A stretch of 64,000 nt of DNA. Source: Ruegeria arenilitoris. GTDB lineage: Bacteria > Pseudomonadota > Alphaproteobacteria > Rhodobacterales > Rhodobacteraceae. A model generated the notes under the pieces. The model was not told the origin of the DNA. It ran no database searches and saw only the letters and a program-made list of their open reading frames with translations. The position numbers were made by a program, and so were the translations under genes. Of the stretch, positions 53,270-62,573 are shown piece after piece. The stretch is taken from assembly GCF_013032855.1 (NCBI RefSeq), contig NZ_WQDA01000001.1, forward strand, positions 379,501-443,500, written 5' to 3'. Each line of letters starts with the position of its first letter. Positions within the stretch are counted from its first letter, which is position 1.

Positions 53270-54565
53270 TCAGGGCTTGAAGCCCGCGGGCACGCCAAAG
53301 GGCGGCGTCTCCACGCTGGTCCCGGTCAGGGCGTGCAGGAACGCCACCAGCTGCGCGATTTCACCGTCGCTCAGGTCAACTGGCGTGATATCGAGCTTGG
53401 CGCGTTGGCGCGCCATCTCGAACCGGTCTTGCCAGACGACGAAATCGCCCTGTTCCAGCCACGGCACCTTGGGCAGCGCGGCCTGATCGGTCGTCCAGCG
53501 TGACAGGCTGGTTGCCGGGTTCAGGTGGTGGCGGATGATCCCTTCGAGGTCGGGAAAGGCGCCGTTGTGGCCGTAGGGCGCCGTCAGCGCCACGTTGCGC
53601 AGCATGGGCGTGCGGAACCGGTAGGCGTCCTCCAGCCGGTCGCTTTCGCCCATGCGACCCACGTCGCGGGCATAGGCGTCCCATTGTCGGGTGCGGCCGG
53701 GGCCGAATGGCGGCAGGGCCAGCGCGTGGAATTTCTGATCCGACAGCAGCGGCCCCGAATGGCAGGTGGCGCACCGCGCCTTGCCGTAGAACAGCTGCAT
53801 CCCGGCCTTCTGATCAGGGGTCAGGGCGGTCTCGTCTCCGGCCAGGTACTGGTCGAACGGGCTGTCGGTGCTGCGCCATTCGATGGCCATGAAAGCGGCC
53901 AGAGCGTTGGCGACATGGGTGATGGTGATGTCCTCGGTGCTGTCCACGTCGTCAAAGGCGGCCACCATCGCCGGGCCGTATTTCGGGTCGGTCCGCACCC
54001 GTTTGGCGATGATCGGCCAGCCCTTGTCGATCCGGTCATGCACGGCGCCGGTGACCTGGTTCTCGGCCACGTTCCCAGCCATTTCGAACTGAGCGGTCAG
54101 CGGAAACAGCGCCTGTGCGGCCAGCAGCGAGTTCAGCCCTTCGGGCAGCCATTCCTGCGCGGGCGAGTTGAACCCGTTGCCATAGACGTCCGACAGGCTG
54201 AGCCGCCCGTCATGGAACATCGTGTGGATGTCGCGCGCGCCCAGGTTCCACAGGCCCGGCGCGTTGCGCGGGATGCGCTTGCGGATGCGGTCCGCCCCGG
54301 TGCCGGGCGTGCGGTCGGGGCCTAGACCCTGGCCGCCCTCGCCGATGCCCAGCGACAGGCCGTCGGAGGTGCCGAAATCGGGGTGGTGGCAATGGGCGCA
54401 GCTGATGTTGCGGTTGCCCGACAGGATCGGGTCATAAAATAGCTGGTGACCGATCGCGGCCTGTTCCCTATCAAAGAACAGAAAGTCGTCATCGGTCAGC
54501 GGCGCGGGCAGGTCCTGCGCCCAGGCCGCCCCGCAGAACAGGAGACCCGCCGCCCCATGCGCCAG
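53270..54565 (-). CDS. Di-heme cytochrome c peroxidase/MauG family protein, non-standard start
   Basis: A periplasmic di-heme enzyme with two c-type heme sites: CAHCH in RNISCAHCHHPDFG and CATCH in KARCATCHSGPLLSD, plus the CCP/MauG blocks TPGTGADRIRKRIPRNAPGL and TPMLRNVALTAPYGHNGAFP. It should reduce H2O2 or modify a partner protein. The start is the problem: the signal-peptide-like stretch LAHGAAGLLFCGAAWAQ is in frame, but no ATG, GTG or TTG lies within dozens of codons upstream. A CTG at 54565 is the nearest usable codon. An ATG at 54558 is in the next frame, separated only by a GGGG run, so a one-base indel is an alternative explanation. The 5' end overlaps the divergent Sel1-like gene. 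Confidence 0.85.
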   Translation of the reverse strand: MAHGAAGLLFCGAAWAQDLPAPLTDDDFLFFDREQAAIGHQLFYDPILSGNRNISCAHCHHPDFGTSDGLSLGIGEGGQGLGPDRTPGTGADRIRKRIPRNAPGLWNLGARDIHTMFHDGRLSLSDVYGNGFNSPAQEWLPEGLNSLLAAQALFPLTAQFEMAGNVAENQVTGAVHDRIDKGWPIIAKRVRTDPKYGPAMVAAFDDVDSTEDITITHVANALAAFMAIEWRSTDSPFDQYLAGDETALTPDQKAGMQLFYGKARCATCHSGPLLSDQKFHALALPPFGPGRTRQWDAYARDVGRMGESDRLEDAYRFRTPMLRNVALTAPYGHNGAFPDLEGIIRHHLNPATSLSRWTTDQAALPKVPWLEQGDFVVWQDRFEMARQRAKLDITPVDLSDGEIAQLVAFLHALTGTSVETPPFGVPAGFKP

Positions 54566-55027
54566 CTTGTGCTTGCCCTTTGTCTTGCCGCCACGCCCGT
54601 CTGGGCCGAACTGGAACAGGCCCGCGATCTGATGGAAGCAGGCGAGTTTGCCGCCGCGCGCGAACAGCTTCTGCCGGCGGCCCGGTCGGGCAACGCCGAG
54701 GCCGAGGAGCTGATCGGCGTGATGTACGGCCTTGGTCTTGGGGTCGAGCAGGACTACGAACGCGCGTTCGAATGGTATCTGCGGGCCTCGATGAAGGGGC
54801 ATCCGGGCGCGCAATCGGGTGTCGGGTGGTATTACGAGCTGGGCCTGGGCCTGCCTGCGCCCGATCTGGTGCGGGCCTACATGTGGTACACGCTCAGCGC
54901 CATCGGCGGCGACCCCGATGCGGCGATCAGCCTGGAAGAGGTGGTCAAGAAGATGACGCCCGAACAGATCGAAAAGGCCCATGTGTTGGTCAATGACTAC
55001 AAGGGGTGGATGTACCCCTTTCGGTAA
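54557..55027 (+). CDS. Sel1-like repeat (TPR-type) exported protein
   Basis: A 156-residue protein with a signal peptide (MRQLVLALCLAATPVWA) followed by Sel1-like repeats: AAREQLLPAARSGNAEAEEL, IGVMYGLGLGVEQDYERAFE, WYLRASMKGHPGAQSGVGWY. Such helical repeats act in protein-protein contacts in the periplasm. The start is the ATG at 54557, which gives the signal peptide; its 5' end overlaps the oppositely directed cytochrome peroxidase gene. It converges with dctP, with a 9-bp GC hairpin between the stops. Confidence 0.88.
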   Translation: MRQLVLALCLAATPVWAELEQARDLMEAGEFAAAREQLLPAARSGNAEAEELIGVMYGLGLGVEQDYERAFEWYLRASMKGHPGAQSGVGWYYELGLGLPAPDLVRAYMWYTLSAIGGDPDAAISLEEVVKKMTPEQIEKAHVLVNDYKGWMYPFR

Positions 55028-55067: not shown

Positions 55068-56129
55068 TCAGTTCAGGTCGGCGGCGCGTTCCGCGTTGAT
55101 CTCGGCCTCGGCCTCGGCCACGGCCGCGGTCAGAGCGCCATAGATCTCGTCCCCGCGCGCGACGTTCTGCTGGAACCAGTCATAGACCGGGGTCGCGGCC
55201 TGCTTGAACGCTTCTTTTTCCTCGGGGGTCGGCACGTACAGGTCGCCGCCACCGGCCACGAAATCCTCGTAGGCCTGGATCGACTTGCGCTTGGGCGAGG
55301 CAAAGGTGGCCTGCTGCAGCGCATAGAACCCATCGACGACGACACGGCGCAGGTCTTCGGGCATTTCCTGGAACTTGGCGTTGTTCATCCACCAAAGCGC
55401 GCCCATATAGGCGTGCCCGTCCAGCGTGACGTATTGCAGGCCGGCATCGGGGAATTTCATGCCCATGATGTCGGTGATGCCGTTTTTCGAGCCGTCAACC
55501 ACGCCGGTCTGGAAACTGGTGAAGAGTTCCGGCCACGGGATCGGAGTGGGCGAGGCGCCCAGGGCCTTGACCAGTTCCTGCGGCAGGTCTGCGACCACGG
55601 TGCGGATCTTCAGCCCGTCCATGTCGGACGGCTGGGTCACGCGGCGCTTGGTGTTGGCGAAATTGCGCCAGCCGCCGGTGTTGCCAATGGTCATCAGGCG
55701 GATCGCGCCGCCCGAATCCTCCAGCGCCATTTCGCGCATCTTGCGGGTGAAATCACCCGACAGGACCCGCTCGGCGATGCGGTCGTCGGCCATCAGATAG
55801 GGCAGGTCCAGAACCTGCACATACGGAAAGATGCCCGAGGCCCCGCCCGAGGTCGAGATGTAGATGTCGATGGTGCCGTCGGCCACGCCCTGCAGGCATT
55901 CGGCCCCGTTCGAGCACAGCTGCGTGCCGATGAACAGCTCGACCTCGATCGCGCCATTCGAGGCGTTCTCGACGAAGTTCTTGAACACGACCAGGCCGTC
56001 ATAGTCCTCGTCGTTTTCGTTCGAGTTGGCGGTGGCGCGCAGCGTATAGTCGGCCGCCGAGGCCGCCAGCGCCGAGGCCGCCACCAGCGACGTGGCGAGT
56101 GCTGTGGTTTTGAAGAATGTTCTGAGCAT
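55068..56129 (-). CDS. TRAP transporter substrate-binding protein (DctP type)
   Basis: A 352-residue periplasmic DctP-family receptor with a signal peptide (about 25 residues, ending ASALAASAADYTLR). The conserved arginine that binds the carboxylate of TRAP ligands is in GLKIRTVVADLPQELVKALG, and the FQTGVVDGSKNGITDIMG block is typical. GGGAGGAAA precedes the start at 56129. It is last in the operon monooxygenase-AKR-flavin reductase-dctQ-dctM-dctP. Substrate is unknown; from context a sulfonate such as sulfoquinovose or its glycoside is suggested, which would be unusual for TRAP. Confidence 0.92.
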   Translation of the reverse strand: MLRTFFKTTALATSLVAASALAASAADYTLRATANSNENDEDYDGLVVFKNFVENASNGAIEVELFIGTQLCSNGAECLQGVADGTIDIYISTSGGASGIFPYVQVLDLPYLMADDRIAERVLSGDFTRKMREMALEDSGGAIRLMTIGNTGGWRNFANTKRRVTQPSDMDGLKIRTVVADLPQELVKALGASPTPIPWPELFTSFQTGVVDGSKNGITDIMGMKFPDAGLQYVTLDGHAYMGALWWMNNAKFQEMPEDLRRVVVDGFYALQQATFASPKRKSIQAYEDFVAGGGDLYVPTPEEKEAFKQAATPVYDWFQQNVARGDEIYGALTAAVAEAEAEINAERAADLN

Positions 56130-56154
56130 GCGTTTCCTCCCTGTGGTACTCAGT

Positions 56155-57444
56155 CTAGTTTGCAAATCCCGTCAAACGCGGGATCGTCATGGATATTGCG
56201 GGGACATAGGTGATCAGGAAGATCACCGCGATTTCGACGGCCAGGAACGGCAGGATCGCCTTGGCGATGGTTTCCACCCGTTCGCGTGACACGGCGGCGG
56301 CCACGAACAGCACCAGCCCCATGGGCGGCGTGGCCAGGCCAACGGTCAGGTTGACGCTCATGATGATGGCGAAATGGATCGGGTCGACCCCCAGGCTGGT
56401 GAAGATCGGGCCCAAGATCGGACCCAGGATGATGATCGCCGGACCGGCATCCAGGAACATGCCTACGACGAACAGCAGCAGGTTGATCAGGAACAGCAGG
56501 ATCAGCGGGTTTTCCGATAGTCCGAGGATCAGCGCGGCCAGTTGCTCGGGCGCGTGGCTGAGGCTGACCACGGTCTTGAACGCCATCGCCGCCCCCACCA
56601 GCAGCAGCACCACGGCCGAGGTCATACCCGCATTGCTGAGAACGTCGGGCACCTCTTTCAAGGTCAGCGTGCGCAGCACGAAAAACCCGATGAGGAAGGC
56701 ATAACCCACCGCGACGGCGGCGGCCTCGGTCGGGGTGAAGATGCCGCCCAGAATGCCGCCCAGAATGATCACCGGCGTCATCAGCGGGAAAAAGGCCTTG
56801 AGGCTGGCCTGACCGCGCTCGGGCCAGGTGTATTTGCGGCTGGCCACCGGGAAATCATACCGGTTGGCCATGACCTTGATCATCAGCATCAGGCCGATGC
56901 CCACCATGACACCCGGCACAATGCCGGCCAGGAACAGGGCCGCGACGCTTTCGCCCATGACATAGGCATAGATGATCATGATCCCCGAGGGCGGGATGAT
57001 CGGCCCGATGACCGAGCTGGCGGCGGTGATCGCGGCGGCGAATTTGCGGGTATAGCCCTGCTTCTCCATTGCCGGGATCAGCATCGAGCCCAGCGCCGAG
57101 GTATCGGCCACCGCCGAGCCCGACAGCCCCGCGAAGAGGATCGAGCTGAGCACGTTCACATGCGCCAGCCCGCCGCGCAGATGCCCCATCAGCGCCTGGC
57201 TGAACTCGACCAGACGGATGGTGATGCCGCCGCGGTTCATCAGTTCTCCGGCCAGCATGAAGAAGGGGATAGCCATCAGCGGGAAGCTGTCCATCCCGTT
57301 GTAGACGTTGCGATAAAGCAAGGTGATGTCGTTGGTCTGGCCGTTTAGCCACAGCAGCAGGCCGGGCGCGGCCAGCAGCGCGAAAAAGACCGGCAGGCCG
57401 ATCAGCAGAAACACCAGAAAGACGGGCAGGAACCAGACCAGCAT
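56155..57444 (-). CDS. TRAP transporter large permease (DctM type)
   Basis: A 429-residue ion-coupled permease with about 12-13 helices. The DctM hallmarks are GQTNDITLLYRNVYNGMDSF, AGELMNRGGITIRLVEFSQA, the IPPSGIMIIYAY loop and the glycine-rich helices near the C-terminus (VGLATPPMGLVLFVAAAVSR). Its start codon directly abuts the dctQ stop. Together with DctQ and DctP it forms a complete Na+-dependent TRAP system. Confidence 0.94.
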   Translation of the reverse strand: MLVWFLPVFLVFLLIGLPVFFALLAAPGLLLWLNGQTNDITLLYRNVYNGMDSFPLMAIPFFMLAGELMNRGGITIRLVEFSQALMGHLRGGLAHVNVLSSILFAGLSGSAVADTSALGSMLIPAMEKQGYTRKFAAAITAASSVIGPIIPPSGIMIIYAYVMGESVAALFLAGIVPGVMVGIGLMLMIKVMANRYDFPVASRKYTWPERGQASLKAFFPLMTPVIILGGILGGIFTPTEAAAVAVGYAFLIGFFVLRTLTLKEVPDVLSNAGMTSAVVLLLVGAAMAFKTVVSLSHAPEQLAALILGLSENPLILLFLINLLLFVVGMFLDAGPAIIILGPILGPIFTSLGVDPIHFAIIMSVNLTVGLATPPMGLVLFVAAAVSRERVETIAKAILPFLAVEIAVIFLITYVPAISMTIPRLTGFAN

Positions 57445-58032
57445 CTATTCGGCCCCCACGGCGGCTTCGGGGATCTCGGGCAGCAGGTCACCGCCGCCCA
57501 GCATGGTGATGATCGACCGCAGGATCAGTTCGATGTTGACCGACAGCAGCAGGATCACGCCCACCAGCAGGGAGGCCATCATCCAGCTGCGCGGGATCCG
57601 GTACCATTCGTCAAAGCCCAGCGAAGTGGGCAGGTACAGCGCTGCGGTGGCGAAACGCCCGCCAAAGCCCGTGACCTCGGACCAGCCGATGCGTACGGCG
57701 ACCACCAGAACCGTCAGGCTGAGCAGCAGCAGAAACAGGTTCAGCAACTGGCCGGGTACGCGCGGCAGAAAGCGGACCAGCATGTCGATGGCCACGAACC
57801 CGCCGCGCCGGAAGGCGGTGGGTGCCATCAGGCCGGTCATCCACAACATGCAGAACCGCGCGGCCTCGTCAGGCCAGGGCAGGGCGTTGCCCAGAACGTA
57901 TCGGAAGAACACCTGGATCAGGATCGCGATCACCATGAAGGCGATCGCAACGACACCAACCGCGCGGCCCAGACGCAGCGCGGTTTCGTTCACGAATGCA
58001 ATCGGCGCAAGCACCGACGTCAATCCGCCCAT
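57445..58032 (-). CDS. TRAP transporter small permease (DctQ type)
   Basis: A 195-residue four-helix protein that holds DctM in the TRAP complex. Visible: FRYVLGNALPWPDEAARFCM between helices 2 and 3, GFVAIDMLVRFLPRV, and four hydrophobic segments. It follows the flavin reductase gene by 52 bases and is immediately followed by dctM. Confidence 0.92.
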   Translation of the reverse strand: MGGLTSVLAPIAFVNETALRLGRAVGVVAIAFMVIAILIQVFFRYVLGNALPWPDEAARFCMLWMTGLMAPTAFRRGGFVAIDMLVRFLPRVPGQLLNLFLLLLSLTVLVVAVRIGWSEVTGFGGRFATAALYLPTSLGFDEWYRIPRSWMMASLLVGVILLLSVNIELILRSIITMLGGGDLLPEIPEAAVGAE

Positions 58033-58084
58033 GCGGTTCCTCCCTGTTCAGGCCGCGGGTTTGGCCCGCGACCGTGTCCCGCGC

Positions 58085-58603
58085 TTATTGGTGCGCGAAT
58101 TGGCCGAGCTTGCCGGCGTAAAAGGTCAGCGCGTCTCCGTCCGCCATGCTGGCCCGCAAGACCTTGCCCACCACGATAACGTGATCGCCCGCATCGTGAT
58201 ACGCATGTTGTTCACATTCGAACCGCGCCAGGCATCCGCGCAGCAGCGGCGTTCCGTTTTCGCAGCGGTCGTGGTCGATGTCGCGCAGGGCAAAGGCGTC
58301 TTTCGAGCAGCCAAAGCACAGCTCGGCCTGGTCGGCCGAGAGAACATGAACACTGAAATGACGCGCCTTGTGAAAATAGGGGAACCGGCGCGAATTCCGG
58401 TCGCCGGCCCACATCACCAAAGGCGGGTCCAGCGACAGCGAGGAAAAGCTGTTGGCCGTGATGCAGACCGGCCCGTCGGGGCTGTCGCAGGTCACGACGG
58501 TGACGCCGGTGGCGAACCGGCCGAAAGCGTCCCGCAGGGTGCGGGTGTCGTCCTTGTGCGGAATGAAGGTGCGCGCCATGTCGTTCGAGAATGCGTTCAT
58601 CAT
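58085..58603 (-). CDS. Flavin reductase, SmoA-like by context
   Basis: A 172-residue flavin reductase of the HpaC/NTA-reductase family: FGRFATGVTVVTCDSPDG, ITANSFSSLSLDPPLVMW and HFSVHVLSADQAEL form the FMN/FAD-binding split barrel. It would make free reduced flavin from NAD(P)H for the LLM monooxygenase two genes upstream. The start overlaps the aldo/keto reductase stop by four bases (ATGA). In the sulfo-SMO pathway this role is filled by SmoA. Confidence 0.88.
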   Translation of the reverse strand: MMNAFSNDMARTFIPHKDDTRTLRDAFGRFATGVTVVTCDSPDGPVCITANSFSSLSLDPPLVMWAGDRNSRRFPYFHKARHFSVHVLSADQAELCFGCSKDAFALRDIDHDRCENGTPLLRGCLARFECEQHAYHDAGDHVIVVGKVLRASMADGDALTFYAGKLGQFAHQ

Positions 58604-59490
58604 GGTACCTCATGCCCCAGCGCCGCCTCGTAGAGACGGAACCAGGCTTCACGATCCAGATTGACTTTCAGGGCGTCCGAAATGCGCTTGATGCGGTCCA
58701 GGCTGTTGGTGCCCAGAACCGGCAGGATGCCGGCCGGATGGGCCAGCAGGAAGGCCACGGCCACCGCGGCCCGGTCGACGCCGAACTGCGCGCCGATCTC
58801 ATCCGCGACCACGCCCACCGGAGGATTACCCGCCATCAGCGCTCCGCCGCCCAGCGGCGACCACGCCATCACCGGGTGGCCGTGCTGCTGGTGAAAGGCC
58901 AGATCGCCATTGGTGAACGGAGCGATCGCGCCCAGAGAAATCTCGATCTGGTTGGTCACCAGCGGGGTCTTCATGGCCGATTGCAGCAGTTGCCAGTCCC
59001 AGGGGCGGAAATTCGACACGCCCACCGCGCGGACCTTGCCGCTGGCCACCACCTCGTCCAGCGCGGCGCCGGTTTCATGGTGGTCCATGATCGGATCGGG
59101 GCGGTGGATCAGCAGCAGGTCGATATGGTCGATCGCCATTTCCCGCAGCGAGGTGTCGACCGATTTCAGGATATGCGCGCGCGAGGTGTCATAGTATTTC
59201 ACCTTGGCATCCGCATAGCGCCCGCAGGGGGCGACGATGTCGCATTTGGTAACGATCTCCATCCGGTCGCGCAGGCCGGGATTGGCGCGCAGGGCGTTGC
59301 CCAGAATCGCCTCGGCGCCATAGTCGCCATAGATGTCGGCCTGATCGAAGCTGGTGATGCCCTGATCCAGACAGGCGTGGATCTTGGCCGCCACATGCGC
59401 GGCCGAGGTGTCGCTGTCATCGCCCAGCCGCCACATGCCATAGACAAGGCGGCTCAGTTCCAAGGTGTCAGAAAGCTTGATACGTTGCAT
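58600..59490 (-). CDS. Aldo/keto reductase, SmoB-like by context
   Basis: A 296-residue AKR starting MQRIKLSDTLELSRLVYG. The catalytic tetrad is visible as Asp and Tyr in FDQADIYGDYG, Lys in IVTKCDIV and His in LLLIHRPDP, and the NADPH-binding C-terminus is present (ILPVLGTNSLDRIKRISDAL). In the sulfo-SMO pathway SmoB reduces 6-dehydro-D-glucose, the desulfonation product, to glucose. The ATG at 59490 overlaps the monooxygenase TGA by one base. Class membership is firm; the sugar aldehyde substrate is inferred from the three-gene set. Confidence 0.87.
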   Translation of the reverse strand: MQRIKLSDTLELSRLVYGMWRLGDDSDTSAAHVAAKIHACLDQGITSFDQADIYGDYGAEAILGNALRANPGLRDRMEIVTKCDIVAPCGRYADAKVKYYDTSRAHILKSVDTSLREMAIDHIDLLLIHRPDPIMDHHETGAALDEVVASGKVRAVGVSNFRPWDWQLLQSAMKTPLVTNQIEISLGAIAPFTNGDLAFHQQHGHPVMAWSPLGGGALMAGNPPVGVVADEIGAQFGVDRAAVAVAFLLAHPAGILPVLGTNSLDRIKRISDALKVNLDREAWFRLYEAALGHEVP

Positions 59491-60644
59491 CAACGACGAA
59501 CTCCGTTGCCCAGCGGCGTCGCCGGGGTGTCAGCAGGGACCCTTCCATAGGCTTCGGGAAGAGAGCAGGTTTTCAGATGTGGCATCACACGGGTGCCGAA
59601 ATGGCGGGCCTCGTCCATATGCGGATAGCCCGAGAAGATGAAGGCGCGGATGCCCATCTTCTGATACTCTTCGATCTTCGACAGAACTTGGTCTGTCGAC
59701 CCCACCAGCGCCGCGCCGCAGCCTGACCGCGCCCGGCCGACGCCCGTCCACAGGCCCGGCTCGACATAGCCGTATTTGTCGGCCAACTCGCGGTTCCTGG
59801 CCTGATGCGAAACACCCAATGAGGTGGCGTCCAGCGCCCGTTCACGGATCGCGCGGCCGTATTCGTCATCCAGCTTCGACACGATGTAGTCGGCATATTC
59901 CTTGGCCTCGGCCTCGGTGTCGCGCACGATCATGTGCACCCGCAGACCATAGTCCAGCGTGCGGCCGTATTCGTCGGCCACCGCGTGCACGGCCTTCATC
60001 CGCTCGGCCAGCTGGTCCTTGGTTTCTGGCCACATCAGATAGACGTCGCAATGCTGGCCGCACAGCTTCAGCGCATCGGGCGAGTACCCCCCGAAATACA
60101 GCAGCGGCCCGCCAGTCTGATAGGGTTTGGCCGGATCGGTCGTCAGGCCCGAGAAATTGTAGACCTGACCCTGGTAATTAATCTCATCCTGCGTCCAGGC
60201 CTGTTTCAGAATCTCGACCACCTCGCGCGAGCGCTGGTAGCGATAGCTGCTTTCGGCCTTTTCCCCCGGAAAATCCGACGAGATGATGTTGACCGTCAGC
60301 CGACCCTTCAGCATGTGGTCCAGCGTCGCGATGGTGCGCGCCAGCATGATCGGCTGCATCTCGCCGCAGCGCACGGCGGCCAGCAGGTTGATCTTTTCGG
60401 TGATCGGGGCGCAGCCGGCGACAAAGCTCAGCGTGTCCTGCCCCACCTGATACGAGGACGGGCACAGGATGTTGCGGAAGCCCTGCGCCTCGGCCTCTTT
60501 CACGATGCCCGAGCAATGTTCCCAGCTGGAGCGCAGATCGCCGTCGGGCACGCCGAGAAACTGATAATCGTCCGAGCACAGCGCCGCGAACCACGAAACC
60601 TCGGCCGCATCCAGATCGGGGGATGTGATGGGGACGATCGTCAT
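59490..60644 (-). CDS. LLM-class FMNH2-dependent monooxygenase, SmoC/SsuD-like by context
   Basis: A 384-residue TIM-barrel flavin monooxygenase of the luciferase-like family, nearest to alkanesulfonate monooxygenase SsuD. Typical blocks are NLLAAVRCGEMQPIMLARTI, LTVNIISSDFPGEK, the SREVVEILKQAW segment, LLYFGGYSPDALKLC and GSTDQVLSKIEEYQKMGIRA. Start 60644 has an AGGAGAGAG site. It would use reduced flavin and O2 to cleave a C-S bond, yielding sulfite and an aldehyde. With AKR and flavin reductase downstream in C-B-A order it matches SmoCBA, the sulfoquinovose oxidative desulfonation enzymes. It is the first gene of the operon. Confidence 0.85.
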   Translation of the reverse strand: MTIVPITSPDLDAAEVSWFAALCSDDYQFLGVPDGDLRSSWEHCSGIVKEAEAQGFRNILCPSSYQVGQDTLSFVAGCAPITEKINLLAAVRCGEMQPIMLARTIATLDHMLKGRLTVNIISSDFPGEKAESSYRYQRSREVVEILKQAWTQDEINYQGQVYNFSGLTTDPAKPYQTGGPLLYFGGYSPDALKLCGQHCDVYLMWPETKDQLAERMKAVHAVADEYGRTLDYGLRVHMIVRDTEAEAKEYADYIVSKLDDEYGRAIRERALDATSLGVSHQARNRELADKYGYVEPGLWTGVGRARSGCGAALVGSTDQVLSKIEEYQKMGIRAFIFSGYPHMDEARHFGTRVMPHLKTCSLPEAYGRVPADTPATPLGNGVRR

Positions 60645-60693
60645 CTGATTCTCTCTCCTGCCGGGCTCAACTTTTCTCTTGCGTAGCAACCAC

Positions 60694-60720
60694 ATTGATG
60701 TAGATCAATAGTGTATCAAT
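60694..60720. promoter_or_regulatory. Candidate operator of the GntR/UTRA regulator
   Basis: In the 104-base divergent region between the monooxygenase and regulator genes, ATTGAT (60694-60699), GTAG, ATCAAT (60704-60709) form an inverted repeat, and a further ATCAAT half-site lies at 60715-60720, one helical turn (11 bases) later. A site shared by both divergent promoters fits a repressor that senses the pathway substrate. Not proven. Confidence 0.5.
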
Positions 60721-60748
60721 TTTTTCTGCGACCAAGTGAAGCGCCCGC

Positions 60749-61459
60749 GTGCCCCCATCCAACAGAAACTCCAACGCCCTGCCGATCTATGTGCAGATCG
60801 CCGAGCTGCTGATCCGCGATATCGCCGCCGGCCGGCTGATCGATGGCGAGCGTCTGCCGCCCGAACGGGACATGGCGGCGCAGTTGAACGTCTCGGTCGG
60901 GACGCTGCGAAAATCGCTCGCCGAGCTGGAAAAAAAGGGGATGCTCGAGCGGATCCAGGGCTCGGGCAACTATGTGCGCGAGACCGGGACCCAGAACAGC
61001 GTCTATGCCATGTTCCGGCTGGAACTGCCCGAGGGCGGCGGCCTGCCGCGCGCCGACATCCTGTCGGTCGATCACCTGGACAAGCCCGCCGACCTGCCCG
61101 ATTTCGGCACCTCGCGGCGCGGGTCGCGCGTGCGGCGGATGCGCTATCTGAATGACACAATCATCGCGGTCGAGGAGATCTGGCTGGACGAATCAGCCGG
61201 TCTGATCGACCGGCGGCTGCTGTCGGACTCGCTGTATCGCTATTACCAGCAGCAGCTTGGGTTCTGGATCACCCGCGCCGAGGATCGGGTTTCGGTCGGT
61301 CGGCTGCCCGATTGGACCCCCGCGAACTTCACACGGCCGGCGGGCGAGACCGTCGGTTACATCGAGCGGTTCAGCTGGTCGGAACGGCCTGAACCCGTCG
61401 AGTTTTCGAAAACCTGGTTCGACCCGGACCGGGCAACTTACGTCCAACGACTGAAATGA
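60749..61459 (+). CDS. GntR family regulator with UTRA domain
   Basis: A 236-residue HutC-type regulator. The winged helix (residues about 10-75) is LIDGERLPPERDMAAQLNVS, then VGTLRKSLAELEKKGMLERI and GSGNYVRETG; the UTRA ligand-binding domain follows (about 85-236), with SRRGSRVRRMRYLND and VEEIWLDESAGLIDRRLLSD. The start is GTG at 60749. It is divergent from the desulfonation operon and followed by the Gfo/Idh gene after 13 bases. By position it probably controls both, responding to a sugar-type effector. Confidence 0.9.
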   Translation: MPPSNRNSNALPIYVQIAELLIRDIAAGRLIDGERLPPERDMAAQLNVSVGTLRKSLAELEKKGMLERIQGSGNYVRETGTQNSVYAMFRLELPEGGGLPRADILSVDHLDKPADLPDFGTSRRGSRVRRMRYLNDTIIAVEEIWLDESAGLIDRRLLSDSLYRYYQQQLGFWITRAEDRVSVGRLPDWTPANFTRPAGETVGYIERFSWSERPEPVEFSKTWFDPDRATYVQRLK

Positions 61460-61472
61460 CGAGGAAACGCGC

Positions 61473-62573
61473 ATGACCCGGACCATCAACTACGGGCTGA
61501 TCGGATGTGGCATGATGGGGCAGGAACACCTGCACAACATCGCTCTGCTGGAGGGCACGCAAGTGGCCGCCATTTTCGAGCCCGACCCCGAGATGGCACG
61601 CGCCGCGCAGGCGATTGCGCCGGGGGCCAGAATGGTGGCTTCGGTGCAGGATCTGCTGGCGGTCGAGGAGTTGGACTGCCTGGTCATCGCCAGCCCCAAC
61701 CATCTGCATGTGGATCAGATCGCCCAGATCGCCCAGACCCGTCCCTTGCCGCTGTTGGTGGAAAAGCCGCTGTTCACCAACCCCGGCGATGCGGCCCGTT
61801 TGGCCGAGATCGAGCGCAGCTATCCCTGTCCGATCTGGCTGGCGATGGAATATCGCTACATGCCGCCCATCGCCGCCCTGATCACCGAGGCGCAGGACAC
61901 CAGCGGCGGGGTCAAGATGCTGAGCATCCGCGAACACCGCTTTCCGTTCCTGGAAAAGGTCGGCAACTGGAACCGGTTCAACCGCAACACGGGCGGCACC
62001 TTCGTCGAGAAATGCTGTCATTTCTTCGACCTGATGCGCCTGATCCTGCAATCCGATCCTGTACGCGTCAGCGCCAGCGGCGGGCAGGCCGTGAACCATC
62101 TGGACGAAACCTATGACGGCGAGACGCCCGACATCCTCGACCACGGCTATGTCATCGTCGATTTCGCCTCGGGCGCGCGGGCGATGCTGGAGCTGTGTAT
62201 GTTCGCCGAAGGTGCGCAGTATCAGGAGGAAATCTCGGTCGTCGGCCCCAAGGCCAAGATCGAGGCGCTGGTCCCCGGGCCGGGCCGGTTCTGGCCCGAA
62301 CATCTGGGCGCGCCGCCGGTGCCGCAGCTGATCGTCAGCCCGCGCGACCCCAAGGGCCCTGTCGCCCGCGACATTCCCGTCGACCCGCGCCTGCTGGCGG
62401 CGGGCGACCACAACGGCTCGACCTTCTATCAGCACCAGGGCTTTCTGGCGCTGGTGCGCGGTGAGCGCGACGCCCCGGATGTCAGCCTGACCGACGGCAT
62501 GTGGGCAGTACGCATGGGTCTGGCGGCGCAGCAATCGCTGGCCACGGGCGAAACCGTCCGGCTGGATCGCTGA
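61473..62573 (+). CDS. Gfo/Idh/MocA family protein, candidate NAD-dependent sulfoquinovosidase
   Basis: A 366-residue protein with an N-terminal Rossmann fold (YGLIGCGMMGQEHLHNI), the EKP motif (LLVEKPLFTN) and the family catalytic block with Lys-x-x-His-x-x-Asp (FVEKCCHFFDLM). Ordinary members are sugar dehydrogenases. One branch of this fold works as NAD+-dependent sulfoquinovosidases (GH188, SqgA), which release sulfoquinovose from its glycosides by transient oxidation. Since no GH31 sulfoquinovosidase is seen next to the operon, this protein is the natural candidate. An ordinary inositol or sugar dehydrogenase is the alternative. Confidence 0.82.
   Translation: MTRTINYGLIGCGMMGQEHLHNIALLEGTQVAAIFEPDPEMARAAQAIAPGARMVASVQDLLAVEELDCLVIASPNHLHVDQIAQIAQTRPLPLLVEKPLFTNPGDAARLAEIERSYPCPIWLAMEYRYMPPIAALITEAQDTSGGVKMLSIREHRFPFLEKVGNWNRFNRNTGGTFVEKCCHFFDLMRLILQSDPVRVSASGGQAVNHLDETYDGETPDILDHGYVIVDFASGARAMLELCMFAEGAQYQEEISVVGPKAKIEALVPGPGRFWPEHLGAPPVPQLIVSPRDPKGPVARDIPVDPRLLAAGDHNGSTFYQHQGFLALVRGERDAPDVSLTDGMWAVRMGLAAQQSLATGETVRLDR

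Follow-up and report, generated by a model that had tools for sequence, protein, structure and literature searches.

Sulfoquinovose (SQ) is a sulfonated sugar which is abundant in plant and algal sulfolipids, and the chemistry of the sulfo-SMO pathway, by which it can be desulfonated, is established. TRAP systems are ion-driven importers. The amount of SQ made is put at ~10 billion tons per year in a passage of PMC10755693. The closest described systems are the sulfo-SMO (sulfo-ASMO) pathways of Agrobacterium tumefaciens and Novosphingobium aromaticivorans, which, as passages of PMC9594981 and PMC12890257 describe them, convert SQ to sulfite and glucose; an ABC importer is described for Agrobacterium (passages of PMC9594981 and PMC11659671). 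In marine Roseobacters the combination of sulfo-SMO genes with a sulfoquinovosidase of family GH188 is described as near-universal (Kaur et al. 2023, passages of PMC10755693). The words TRAP, tripartite, transporter, importer and DctP have zero occurrences in the main text of that paper. In the full texts searched, no literature tying TRAP or DctP to SQ import was found, though an earlier depiction elsewhere is possible. The wording "trap" in passages of PMC12421959, PMC11659671 and PMC5770400 concerns trap columns, ion trap and transporter counts.

The stretch of DNA analysed here (the window, 64,000 nucleotides from Ruegeria arenilitoris) contains a locus which resembles these systems in having a SmoC-type monooxygenase, a SmoB-type reductase and a flavin reductase, and shares with the Roseobacter clusters the pairing of GH188 with sulfo-SMO genes; it differs from Agrobacterium in having a TRAP system in place of the ABC importer (Table 1). 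The original prediction described a minus-strand operon for these enzymes and DctQ, DctM and DctP, with a GntR/UTRA regulator and a Gfo/Idh protein divergent from it. The order and place of the eight genes were borne out, Pfam agrees for every family, and the predicted overlaps are real: 1 base between the monooxygenase (LLM class) and the aldo/keto reductase and 4 bases between the latter and the flavin reductase. DctQ and DctM abut without overlap, and there are gaps of 52 bases between flavin reductase and DctQ and of 25 between DctM and DctP. For smoC, a longer open reading frame beginning at 60695 is less likely than the start which we have used (60644) because the homologs begin at MTVVP. 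None of the cluster's eight genes codes for an ABC binding protein or permease of a SmoEFGH-type importer.

Table 1. Features of the SQ locus and its neighbours (positions in the window)
Feature	Position	Strand	Basis
smoC-type FMNH2-dependent SQ monooxygenase, LLM class	59490..60644	-	79% identity, 724 bits vs 7olf
smoB-type aldo/keto reductase (predicted 6-dehydroglucose to glucose)	58600..59490	-	417 bits vs 7bby/7bbz
smoA-type flavin reductase	58085..58603	-	PF01613; evidence at family level only
dctQ, TRAP small permease	57445..58032	-	PF04290
dctM, TRAP large permease	56155..57444	-	PF06808; TIGR00786 434 bits, cut-off 268
dctP, TRAP solute-binding protein, proposed SQ/SQ-glycoside binder	55068..56129	-	PF03480; NF037995; genome context; model
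GntR/UTRA, putative regulator of the divergent operon	60749..61459	+	PF00392 + PF07702
GH188 NAD+-dependent sulfoquinovosidase, SqgA type	61473..62573	+	585 bits vs 8zn9; conserved residues
Perfect palindrome TTGAT-N4-ATCAA, probable operator	60695..60708	between smoC and gntR	occurs exactly once in the 64 kb window
MauG-like di-haem protein, probably periplasmic, 5' end approximate	53270..54475	-	PF03150, two CxxCH motifs
Sel1-repeat protein, convergent with dctP, signal peptide judged by eye	54554..55027	+	PF08238

We read the locus as one for sulfolytic SQ utilisation that includes a dedicated importer, comprising DctPQM for uptake, GH188, SmoCAB and the GntR/UTRA regulator, and give this reading a probability of roughly 85%. 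It proposes that free SQ, sulfoquinovosyl glycerol or both would pass the inner membrane through DctPQM and that the cytoplasmic, NAD+-dependent GH188 enzyme would release SQ. SmoC, supplied with FMNH2 from SmoA, would then cut the C-S bond to give sulfite and 6-dehydroglucose, which SmoB would reduce to glucose, and the GntR/UTRA protein would control the divergent operon.

The enzymes were compared with solved protein chains. The monooxygenase scores 724 bits to 7olf and 719 to 7oh2, which we take to be SmoC proteins and whose database records are labelled methanesulfonate sulfonatase and alkanesulfonate monooxygenase, against 190 bits (7jv3) and 180 bits (1nqk, 1m41) for SsuD-like chains and 94 bits for the SfnG-type 8t0u. 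With the NCBIfam SsuD model TIGR03565 the score is 241 bits at a cut-off of 518, and with the SfnG model 160 at a cut-off of 383. A grouping with SsuD or SfnG/MsuD, which would have told against the sulfoquinovose claim, is absent from the sequence comparison; an SsuD, MsuD or SfnG identity was ruled out by the scores, and on overall similarity the protein is assigned to a SmoC type distinct from SsuD and SfnG. The aldo/keto reductase scores 417 bits to 7bby/7bbz, presumably SmoB although their records read aryl-alcohol dehydrogenase; its next relative, YdhF, scores 208 and was rejected as an identity. The flavin reductase lies in the same operon and its PF01613 match is unspecific to SmoA. 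Taken together these three genes support the sulfo-SMO reading that had been put forward, and judged by homology this marine Ruegeria-type bacterium is predicted to encode a complete gene set for desulfonating SQ. For disposal of the sulfite, searches of the genome with SorA-type PF03404 and with PF03601 gave no match.

The Gfo/Idh protein, which the original prediction treated as a mere side gene, has to be corrected to a GH188 sulfoquinovosidase. It scores 585 bits to 8zn9, the record of which reads only "oxidoreductase, putative", 384 to 8qc2 and 380 to 8qc3, and the next chain follows at 57 bits; 8qc2 and 8qc3 are SqgA proteins according to passages of PMC10755693. In the alignment the sulfonate clamp R166, L170 and K172 is present as R156, L160 and K162, and K107, Y136, E189, H193 and H321 are present as K98, Y127, E179, H183 and H313. 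It should be noted that the catalytic-site glutamate printed as Glu163 is position 164 in the alignment register (163 is V in ArSqgA) and corresponds to E154 here. An inositol-type dehydrogenase was considered and rejected (TIGR04380, 94 of 355 bits), the GH188 chains giving the best scores. A. tumefaciens has a sulfoquinovosidase of its own, which we take to be a GH31 enzyme; the locus described here has GH188 instead, and since no GH31 match was found in its own genome, GH188 can fill the sulfoquinovosidase role. No signal peptide is seen by eye in the GH188 protein, and the importer would therefore be expected to transport sulfoquinovosyl glycosides as well as free SQ.

The palindrome TTGAT-N4-ATCAA, in the 104-base region between smoC and gntR, is probably an operator. 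Among 78 smoC-gntR intergenic regions it is perfect in 50, has one mismatch in 5 and is absent from 23, and some loci without the full box retain a half-site with a CTAC spacer. Its form fits the FNR consensus, but the half-sites with the CTAC spacer suit a GntR operator too.

The three TRAP proteins are encoded by consecutive genes. DctP scores 132 bits with NF037995 (cut-off 50) and 148 bits with TIGR00787, below its cut-off of 175; its structure model (pLDDT 92) has the DctP fold. A fold search gave 587 PDB matches at E<=0.001, and the 50 matches listed are TRAP binding proteins. R176 is invariant in 56 sequences and corresponds to the canonical TRAP arginine, which, as we understand the work on SiaP, binds the acid group of the ligand. 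Among the matches listed, the best is the isethionate protein IseP (8t9t/8te9), which shares the DctP fold and has a sulfonate ligand, but it is only ~23% identical to the DctP here and isethionate is not a sugar. As its score nearly ties with those of sialate and other DctPs, the match is no evidence for a ligand, and the fold search was set aside for that purpose. The original prediction called SQ an unusual ligand class for DctP proteins; this is less odd than stated, as structures of DctPs for a sulfonate (isethionate, 8t9t/8te9) and for sugar acids (SiaP, DctPAm) have been solved.

Evidence on what the importer carries comes from genome context. The family survey covered 345 genomes of 344 genera, and the context of DctP was surveyed in 345 + 385 genomes; DctP orthologs are 67-100% identical and the next best 50%. 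SmoC was found in 147, the DctP ortholog in 123 and both in 94 of the 345 family genomes, and in 89 of these 94 the two genes lie on one contig and strand at a median distance of 4.6 kb. At the 5 loci with DctP and SmoC on different contigs, neither SQ pathway has a core gene near the TRAP genes in 3. Among the named SmoC loci, the best 80 of 548 confirmed, DctP is at the same place in 58, which puts the arrangement far beyond chance; it is absent from 19, and 3 have only DctQ/DctM (the locus is interrupted in L052 and meets a contig end in L066 and L077). Since 53 of the 147 SmoC genomes are without this DctP, the TRAP system is not required; some smo clusters without it have other transporters nearby, for example ABC permeases after smoA in L074. 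Among Roseobacters the TRAP-smo arrangement is common; it is also present in Roseibium and on a plasmid of Rhizobium, and Ruegeria sp. TM1040 has the cluster on its megaplasmid. Of 12 matching records in the plasmid collection, 11 call the protein simply DctP and 1 leaves it unlabelled. The association is genomic, and many of the genomes are relatives of one another: close Ruegeria make up 20 of the 59 SMO rows in the tree, the window included. Genome context supports the proposal that a TRAP system has taken the place of the ABC importer.

The same DctP also occurs beside another SQ pathway. Of 29 genomes with DctP and no full SmoC, 20 have an SQ isomerase, a sulfofructose kinase and GH188 near the TRAP genes, which resembles sulfo-EMP/EMP2-type clusters; the isomerase matches its model below the curated cut-off, and 2rbc, an unassigned sugar kinase, scores equal to sulfofructose kinase. 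These clusters differ from the present locus in using an isomerase/kinase/aldolase route without C-S cleavage by SmoC, and in having a DeoR gene (17/20) where a GntR gene is found here. A sulfo-ED pathway was rejected, the enzymes being EMP-type. The other 9 genomes have parts of a smo cluster in 6 cases; in the remaining 3, as in the class-level locus L134, no core SQ-pathway gene (SMO or EMP) is near the TRAP genes. On the DctP tree the SMO and EMP contexts are intermixed and a minimum of 7 changes is needed; many nodes are weak, and the starred branches alone force 2 (SMO) and 5 (EMP) changes. A more distant TRAP system in Photobacterium, with a DctP of 45%, has YihS- and YihU-type genes as neighbours (701 bits to 7ag4 for YihS; 509 bits at a cut-off of 348 for YihU). 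In the Ruegeria, SQ is very probably taken up through DctPQM, a TRAP system which relatives would use with other SQ pathways too.

Three other explanations have to be weighed. If the monooxygenase were an ordinary SsuD/MsuD-type alkanesulfonate enzyme for sulfur scavenging, the cluster would be a sulfonate assimilation operon; the enzyme does belong to the same Pfam family, PF00296, and its match to SsuD is clear but distant, yet that match is far under the cut-off, the score to 7olf is 724 bits against 180-190 to SsuD-like chains, and a SmoB-type reductase and GH188 alongside would be needless for sulfur scavenging, which makes this explanation extremely improbable. A second proposal accepts the sulfo-SMO enzymes and lets the TRAP system import a co-used anion such as a sugar acid, glycerate or a C2/C3 sulfonate (isethionate, DHPS, sulfolactate). 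DctP keeps R176, isethionate, sialic acid and sugar acids are the ligands of the folds nearest to it, and possible C3-product enzymes are found near the EMP-type TRAP genes (aldehyde dehydrogenase in 11/20, 2-hydroxyacid dehydrogenase in 15/20). In sulfo-SMO a C3 sulfonate is neither product nor substrate, but that pathway shares the TRAP system with the EMP-type clusters; what the two pathways have in common is SQ and its glycosides, which supports the assignment proposed for the importer, and the repeated context switches on the DctP tree point the same way. We consider the co-used anion unlikely.

A narrower form of the preferred reading is that the TRAP system imports free SQ only, GH188 acting on leaked or internal glycosides. 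The ligands named in matching solved TRAP structures are small acids, SQ is smaller than SQ-glycerol, and beside the Photobacterium TRAP no GH188 match was found. This is to be set against the presence of GH188 with the TRAP genes in both contexts (57 of the 58 named TRAP loci from the best 80 of 548, and 20/20 EMP-type loci) and against the enzyme itself, which is NAD+-dependent and has no apparent signal peptide, so that its substrate must enter the cell. Transport may be confined to SQ or to the glycoside; restriction to free SQ has something to be said for it, and we still regard it as the less probable course.

Two neighbours, the MauG-like di-haem protein and the Sel1 protein, mostly travel together with the TRAP genes. 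The Sel1 gene adjoins DctP in both SMO and EMP contexts. MauG homologs of 49-57% identity adjoin smoA in genomes without the TRAP system (L147-L150, L152, L153), which weakens the idea of MauG as a TRAP-only partner. An open reading frame ("c3") taken as a candidate dehydratase was rejected, as it consists of the MauG gene plus part of the Sel1 gene read antisense. A speculative and rather doubtful proposal is that DctPQM, Sel1 and the MauG-like protein form a portable periplasmic module for uptake of sulfolipid sugars, swapped repeatedly between C-S- and C-C-cleaving pathways. The di-haem enzyme would oxidise something periplasmic needed for uptake, for example a residue of DctP or, in sulfoquinovosyl glycerol, the glycerol moiety, to allow binding by the TRAP protein. 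DctP holds a conserved cysteine pair, C72/C78, which is one candidate site of oxidation. Through the MauG-like partner, a redox step in the uptake of sulfosugars could be tested directly.

GH188 together with sulfo-SMO was already known from the Roseobacter clusters; what the present analysis adds is the link of a TRAP system to SQ across pathways. With an SQ-binding DctP, the known TRAP ligands would come to include a sulfonated sugar or its glycoside. If a DctP family marked SQ uptake irrespective of the pathway that follows, it would serve as a simple marker in genomes and would separate users of sulfoglycosides from look-alikes. Roseobacters are among the marine degraders of SQ, and what is usable to them depends on the importer.

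The eight genes of the original prediction were all found where it had placed them, with their families confirmed, and the overlaps it claimed (1 base between smoC and smoB, 4 bases between smoB and smoA) are both present. Among named records Ruegeria intermedia DSM 29341 is the closest, its cluster proteins being 96-100% identical. The window covers positions 379501-443500 of contig 1. A search of the 3.8 Mb genome gave one full SmoC match, the second match being a 29% stretch. The smoC-gntR intergenic region contains a perfect palindrome, TTGAT-N4-ATCAA (60695-60708), which is perfect in 50 of 78 such regions and looks like an FNR box or a GntR operator.

Genes of the predicted sulfoquinovose cluster and its proposed importer
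Gene	Position	Strand	Remark
smoC-like monooxygenase gene	60644..59490	minus	
smoB-like reductase gene	59490..58600	minus	
smoA-like flavin reductase gene	58603..58085	minus	
dctQ	58032..57445	minus	same strand as smo genes
dctM	57444..56155	minus	
dctP	56129..55068	minus	
gntR	60749..61459	plus	divergent from smo-dct genes
Gfo/Idh gene (GH188)	61473..62573	plus	divergent

The proposed sulfo-SMO pathway is supported by the monooxygenase, which scores 724/719 bits to 7olf/7oh2 versus 180-190 for SsuD-like chains and is 79% identical to 7olf over 384 columns. The reductase scores 417 bits to 7bby/7bbz versus 208 to YdhF. These four structures, whose PDB records bear general names, we take to be SmoC and SmoB. 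An identity of the monooxygenase as SsuD or SfnG was rejected, its scores being far under both NCBIfam cut-offs. For the flavin reductase the assignment stops at the family.

The Gfo/Idh gene does stand divergently as predicted, but its identity had been missed: the sequence points to a GH188 NAD+-dependent sulfoquinovosidase. The SqgA chains 8qc2/8qc3 match at 384/380 bits (next chain 57), below the best chain, 8zn9 (585 bits), whose record name is only 'oxidoreductase, putative'. The substrate-binding and catalytic residues of GH188 are given in the main text of PMC10755693, and by residue mapping in its numbering the sulfonate clamp R166/L170/K172 is conserved, as are K107, Y136, E189, H193, H321 and a glutamate printed there as 163 which aligns at 164. 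No GH31 match was found anywhere in the genome searched. The GH188 protein has its Rossmann motif right at the start and, by visual inspection, no signal peptide; glycosides should therefore be cleaved in the cytoplasm, and a cell living on sulfolipid-derived sulfoquinovosyl glycerol would thus require an importer that carries the glycoside.

The TRAP system very probably belongs to the sulfoquinovose (SQ) pathway, and three tests agree on this: conservation, co-occurrence and association with a second pathway. Among the named SmoC loci (the best 80 of 548 confirmed) DctP is in place in 58, DctQ/DctM alone in 3 and none in 19; GH188 is present in 57 of the 58. The Rhodobacteraceae sample of 345 genomes from 344 genera has SmoC in 147 and a DctP ortholog in 123, the ortholog group being sharply bounded (67-100% identity, then a drop to 50%). 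Both occur in 94 genomes, SmoC alone in 53, DctP alone in 29 and neither in 169 (Fisher p ~2e-21, uncorrected for relatedness). They share contig and strand in 89 of the 94, at a median distance of 4.6 kb. In the five genomes where they lie on different contigs smoB/smoA adjoin TRAP in two loci (L141, L142) and are absent beside it in L140, L143 and L144.

For each of the 29 genomes that have DctP but no full SmoC, the surroundings of the TRAP genes were viewed. Genes for an SQ isomerase, a sulfofructose-type kinase and GH188 lie close to TRAP in 20, with a DeoC/LacD-family aldolase in 19 and a DeoR gene in 17 of these. The enzymes were typed on example proteins. At E<=1e-20 the isomerase has a single NCBIfam match, to SftI sulfoquinovose isomerase (258 bits, under the cut-off of 700); its Pfam fucose isomerase domain is slightly below cut-off, and no PDB chain matched at E<=1e-10. 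The kinase scores 171 bits to sulfofructose kinase 7ag6, level with the unassigned sugar kinase 2rbc (170), and 104 to ribokinases; the aldolase scores 314 bits to 8tnf, 137 to tagatose-bisphosphate aldolases and 74 to YihT. Taken together, these typings predict that the 20 loci encode an EMP-type (isomerase/kinase/aldolase) SQ pathway without SmoC. Six of the 29 have a partial smo cluster (L087, L088, L094, L096, L103, L109). In L087, L094 and L103 smoB and TRAP are found with no smoC at the locus, which may mean that smoC was lost or that another C-S cleaving enzyme is encoded elsewhere; smoB of L087 lies ~280 bases from gntR. The other three neighbourhoods (L085, L101 and L111, the last on a contig of 3.6 kb) contain none of the tested SQ genes.

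For TRAP-less clusters chosen neighbour genes were scanned, and among the 53 SmoC-only genomes six smo loci were viewed (L145-L150). ABC permeases immediately follow smoA in L074, L071 has a binding protein among the scanned neighbours, L054 has an ABC ATPase and an MFS protein around the cluster, and ABC genes are at least 6 kb off in L058; the remaining clusters showed no importer among the neighbours scanned. Importer exchange would fit this pattern. Four TRAP-less clusters (L147, L149, L150, L153) have an ORF of a recurring type, 1361-1732 aa, on the regulator/GH188 side. A PF03601-type putative sulfate exporter occurs at L157:10258-11283 and 12 further loci, including SMO clusters of TM1040, Roseibium and a Rhizobium plasmid; the window's genome gave no match to it.

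Two family genomes have DctP at 49-50% identity, one with kinase, GH188 and isomerase nearby (L112), the other with kinase only (L113). Among 385 alphaproteobacterial genomes 16 match DctP at E<=1e-60, five of them from the family. Six non-family genomes at 80-83% identity comprise two SMO loci, two EMP-type loci, L134 (no tested SQ genes save a 35% aldehyde dehydrogenase match) and L120, a 3.2 kb contig. EMP-type genes are still close to DctP at 52% (L135) and 41% (L137) identity; none of the tested SQ genes were near DctP at 44, 37 and 36% (L136, L138, L139). Twelve plasmid records match DctP, and four were viewed: the smo order is the same on the Ruegeria sp. TM1040 megaplasmid, a Paracoccus seriniphilus plasmid and a Rhizobium plasmid, and on a Photobacterium sp. 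DA100 replicon (L155:67-9936, 45% DctP) TRAP adjoins a YihS-type isomerase and YihU. This isomerase scores 701 bits to the sulfoquinovose isomerase 7ag4, with an NCBIfam match to D-mannose isomerase below cut-off, and YihU 509 bits against a cut-off of 348. A PfkB-type kinase, at 38% to its EMP-type counterpart, stands at this locus too, as do a mutarotase and a class II aldolase. L155 would be a third SQ pathway context for a related TRAP, in another class.

A quick DctP tree built from 102 rows mixes the SMO and EMP contexts, and parsimony needs no fewer than 7 changes. Many of its nodes are weak; when only well-supported branches are counted, 2 changes are forced for SMO and 5 for EMP. The likely ligand is sulfoquinovose and its glycosides, because these are common to the pathways found with TRAP. 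The DctP model (56 sequences, mean pLDDT 92, pTM 0.87) gave 50 listed PDB matches, all TRAP binding proteins, among which the isethionate protein IseP ranks first; since many tie with IseP, the fold match gives no ligand inference. R176 and R155 are invariant. The pair C72/C78 (precursor numbering), a possible disulfide, is near-invariant and also found in three rows of ~50% identity.

Directly downstream of dctP (53270-55027) are a Sel1-repeat gene and a MauG-like di-haem gene, whose product has two CxxCH motifs. With the ortholog line at >=58% identity, set once the list had been viewed, MauG is found in 95 of 345 family genomes, 94 of which also have DctP; in 76 of these MauG is no more than 6.5 kb away, and in 18 it lies elsewhere or on a different contig. 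It occurs in 70 of the 94 genomes that have DctP plus SmoC, in 24 of the 29 that have only DctP and in none of the 53 that have only SmoC. Orthologs are found in both pathway contexts. Of the 58 named loci with TRAP, 47 have both MauG and Sel1; of the 19 lacking TRAP, 1 has MauG. Five SmoC-only genomes (G218, G154, G025, G262, G330) have MauG at 50-57% identity, and in these and G097 it adjoins smoA. Because MauG also sits beside smoA in TRAP-less genomes, its link may be to SQ use and not to TRAP itself. Our literature search, as far as the sources were accessible, found no paper that relevantly links sulfoquinovose to MauG or cytochrome c peroxidase.

The combination of sulfo-SMO and GH188 in Roseobacters has already been published, in the main text of PMC10755693, where TRAP, transporter and DctP are all absent; neither TRAP nor tripartite occurs in the main text of PMC12890257, PMC9594981 or PMC13372026. 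As the search covered main texts, a TRAP importer may be drawn in some published cluster. The SQ pathway was known already; what would be new is the type of importer and its sharing between pathways.
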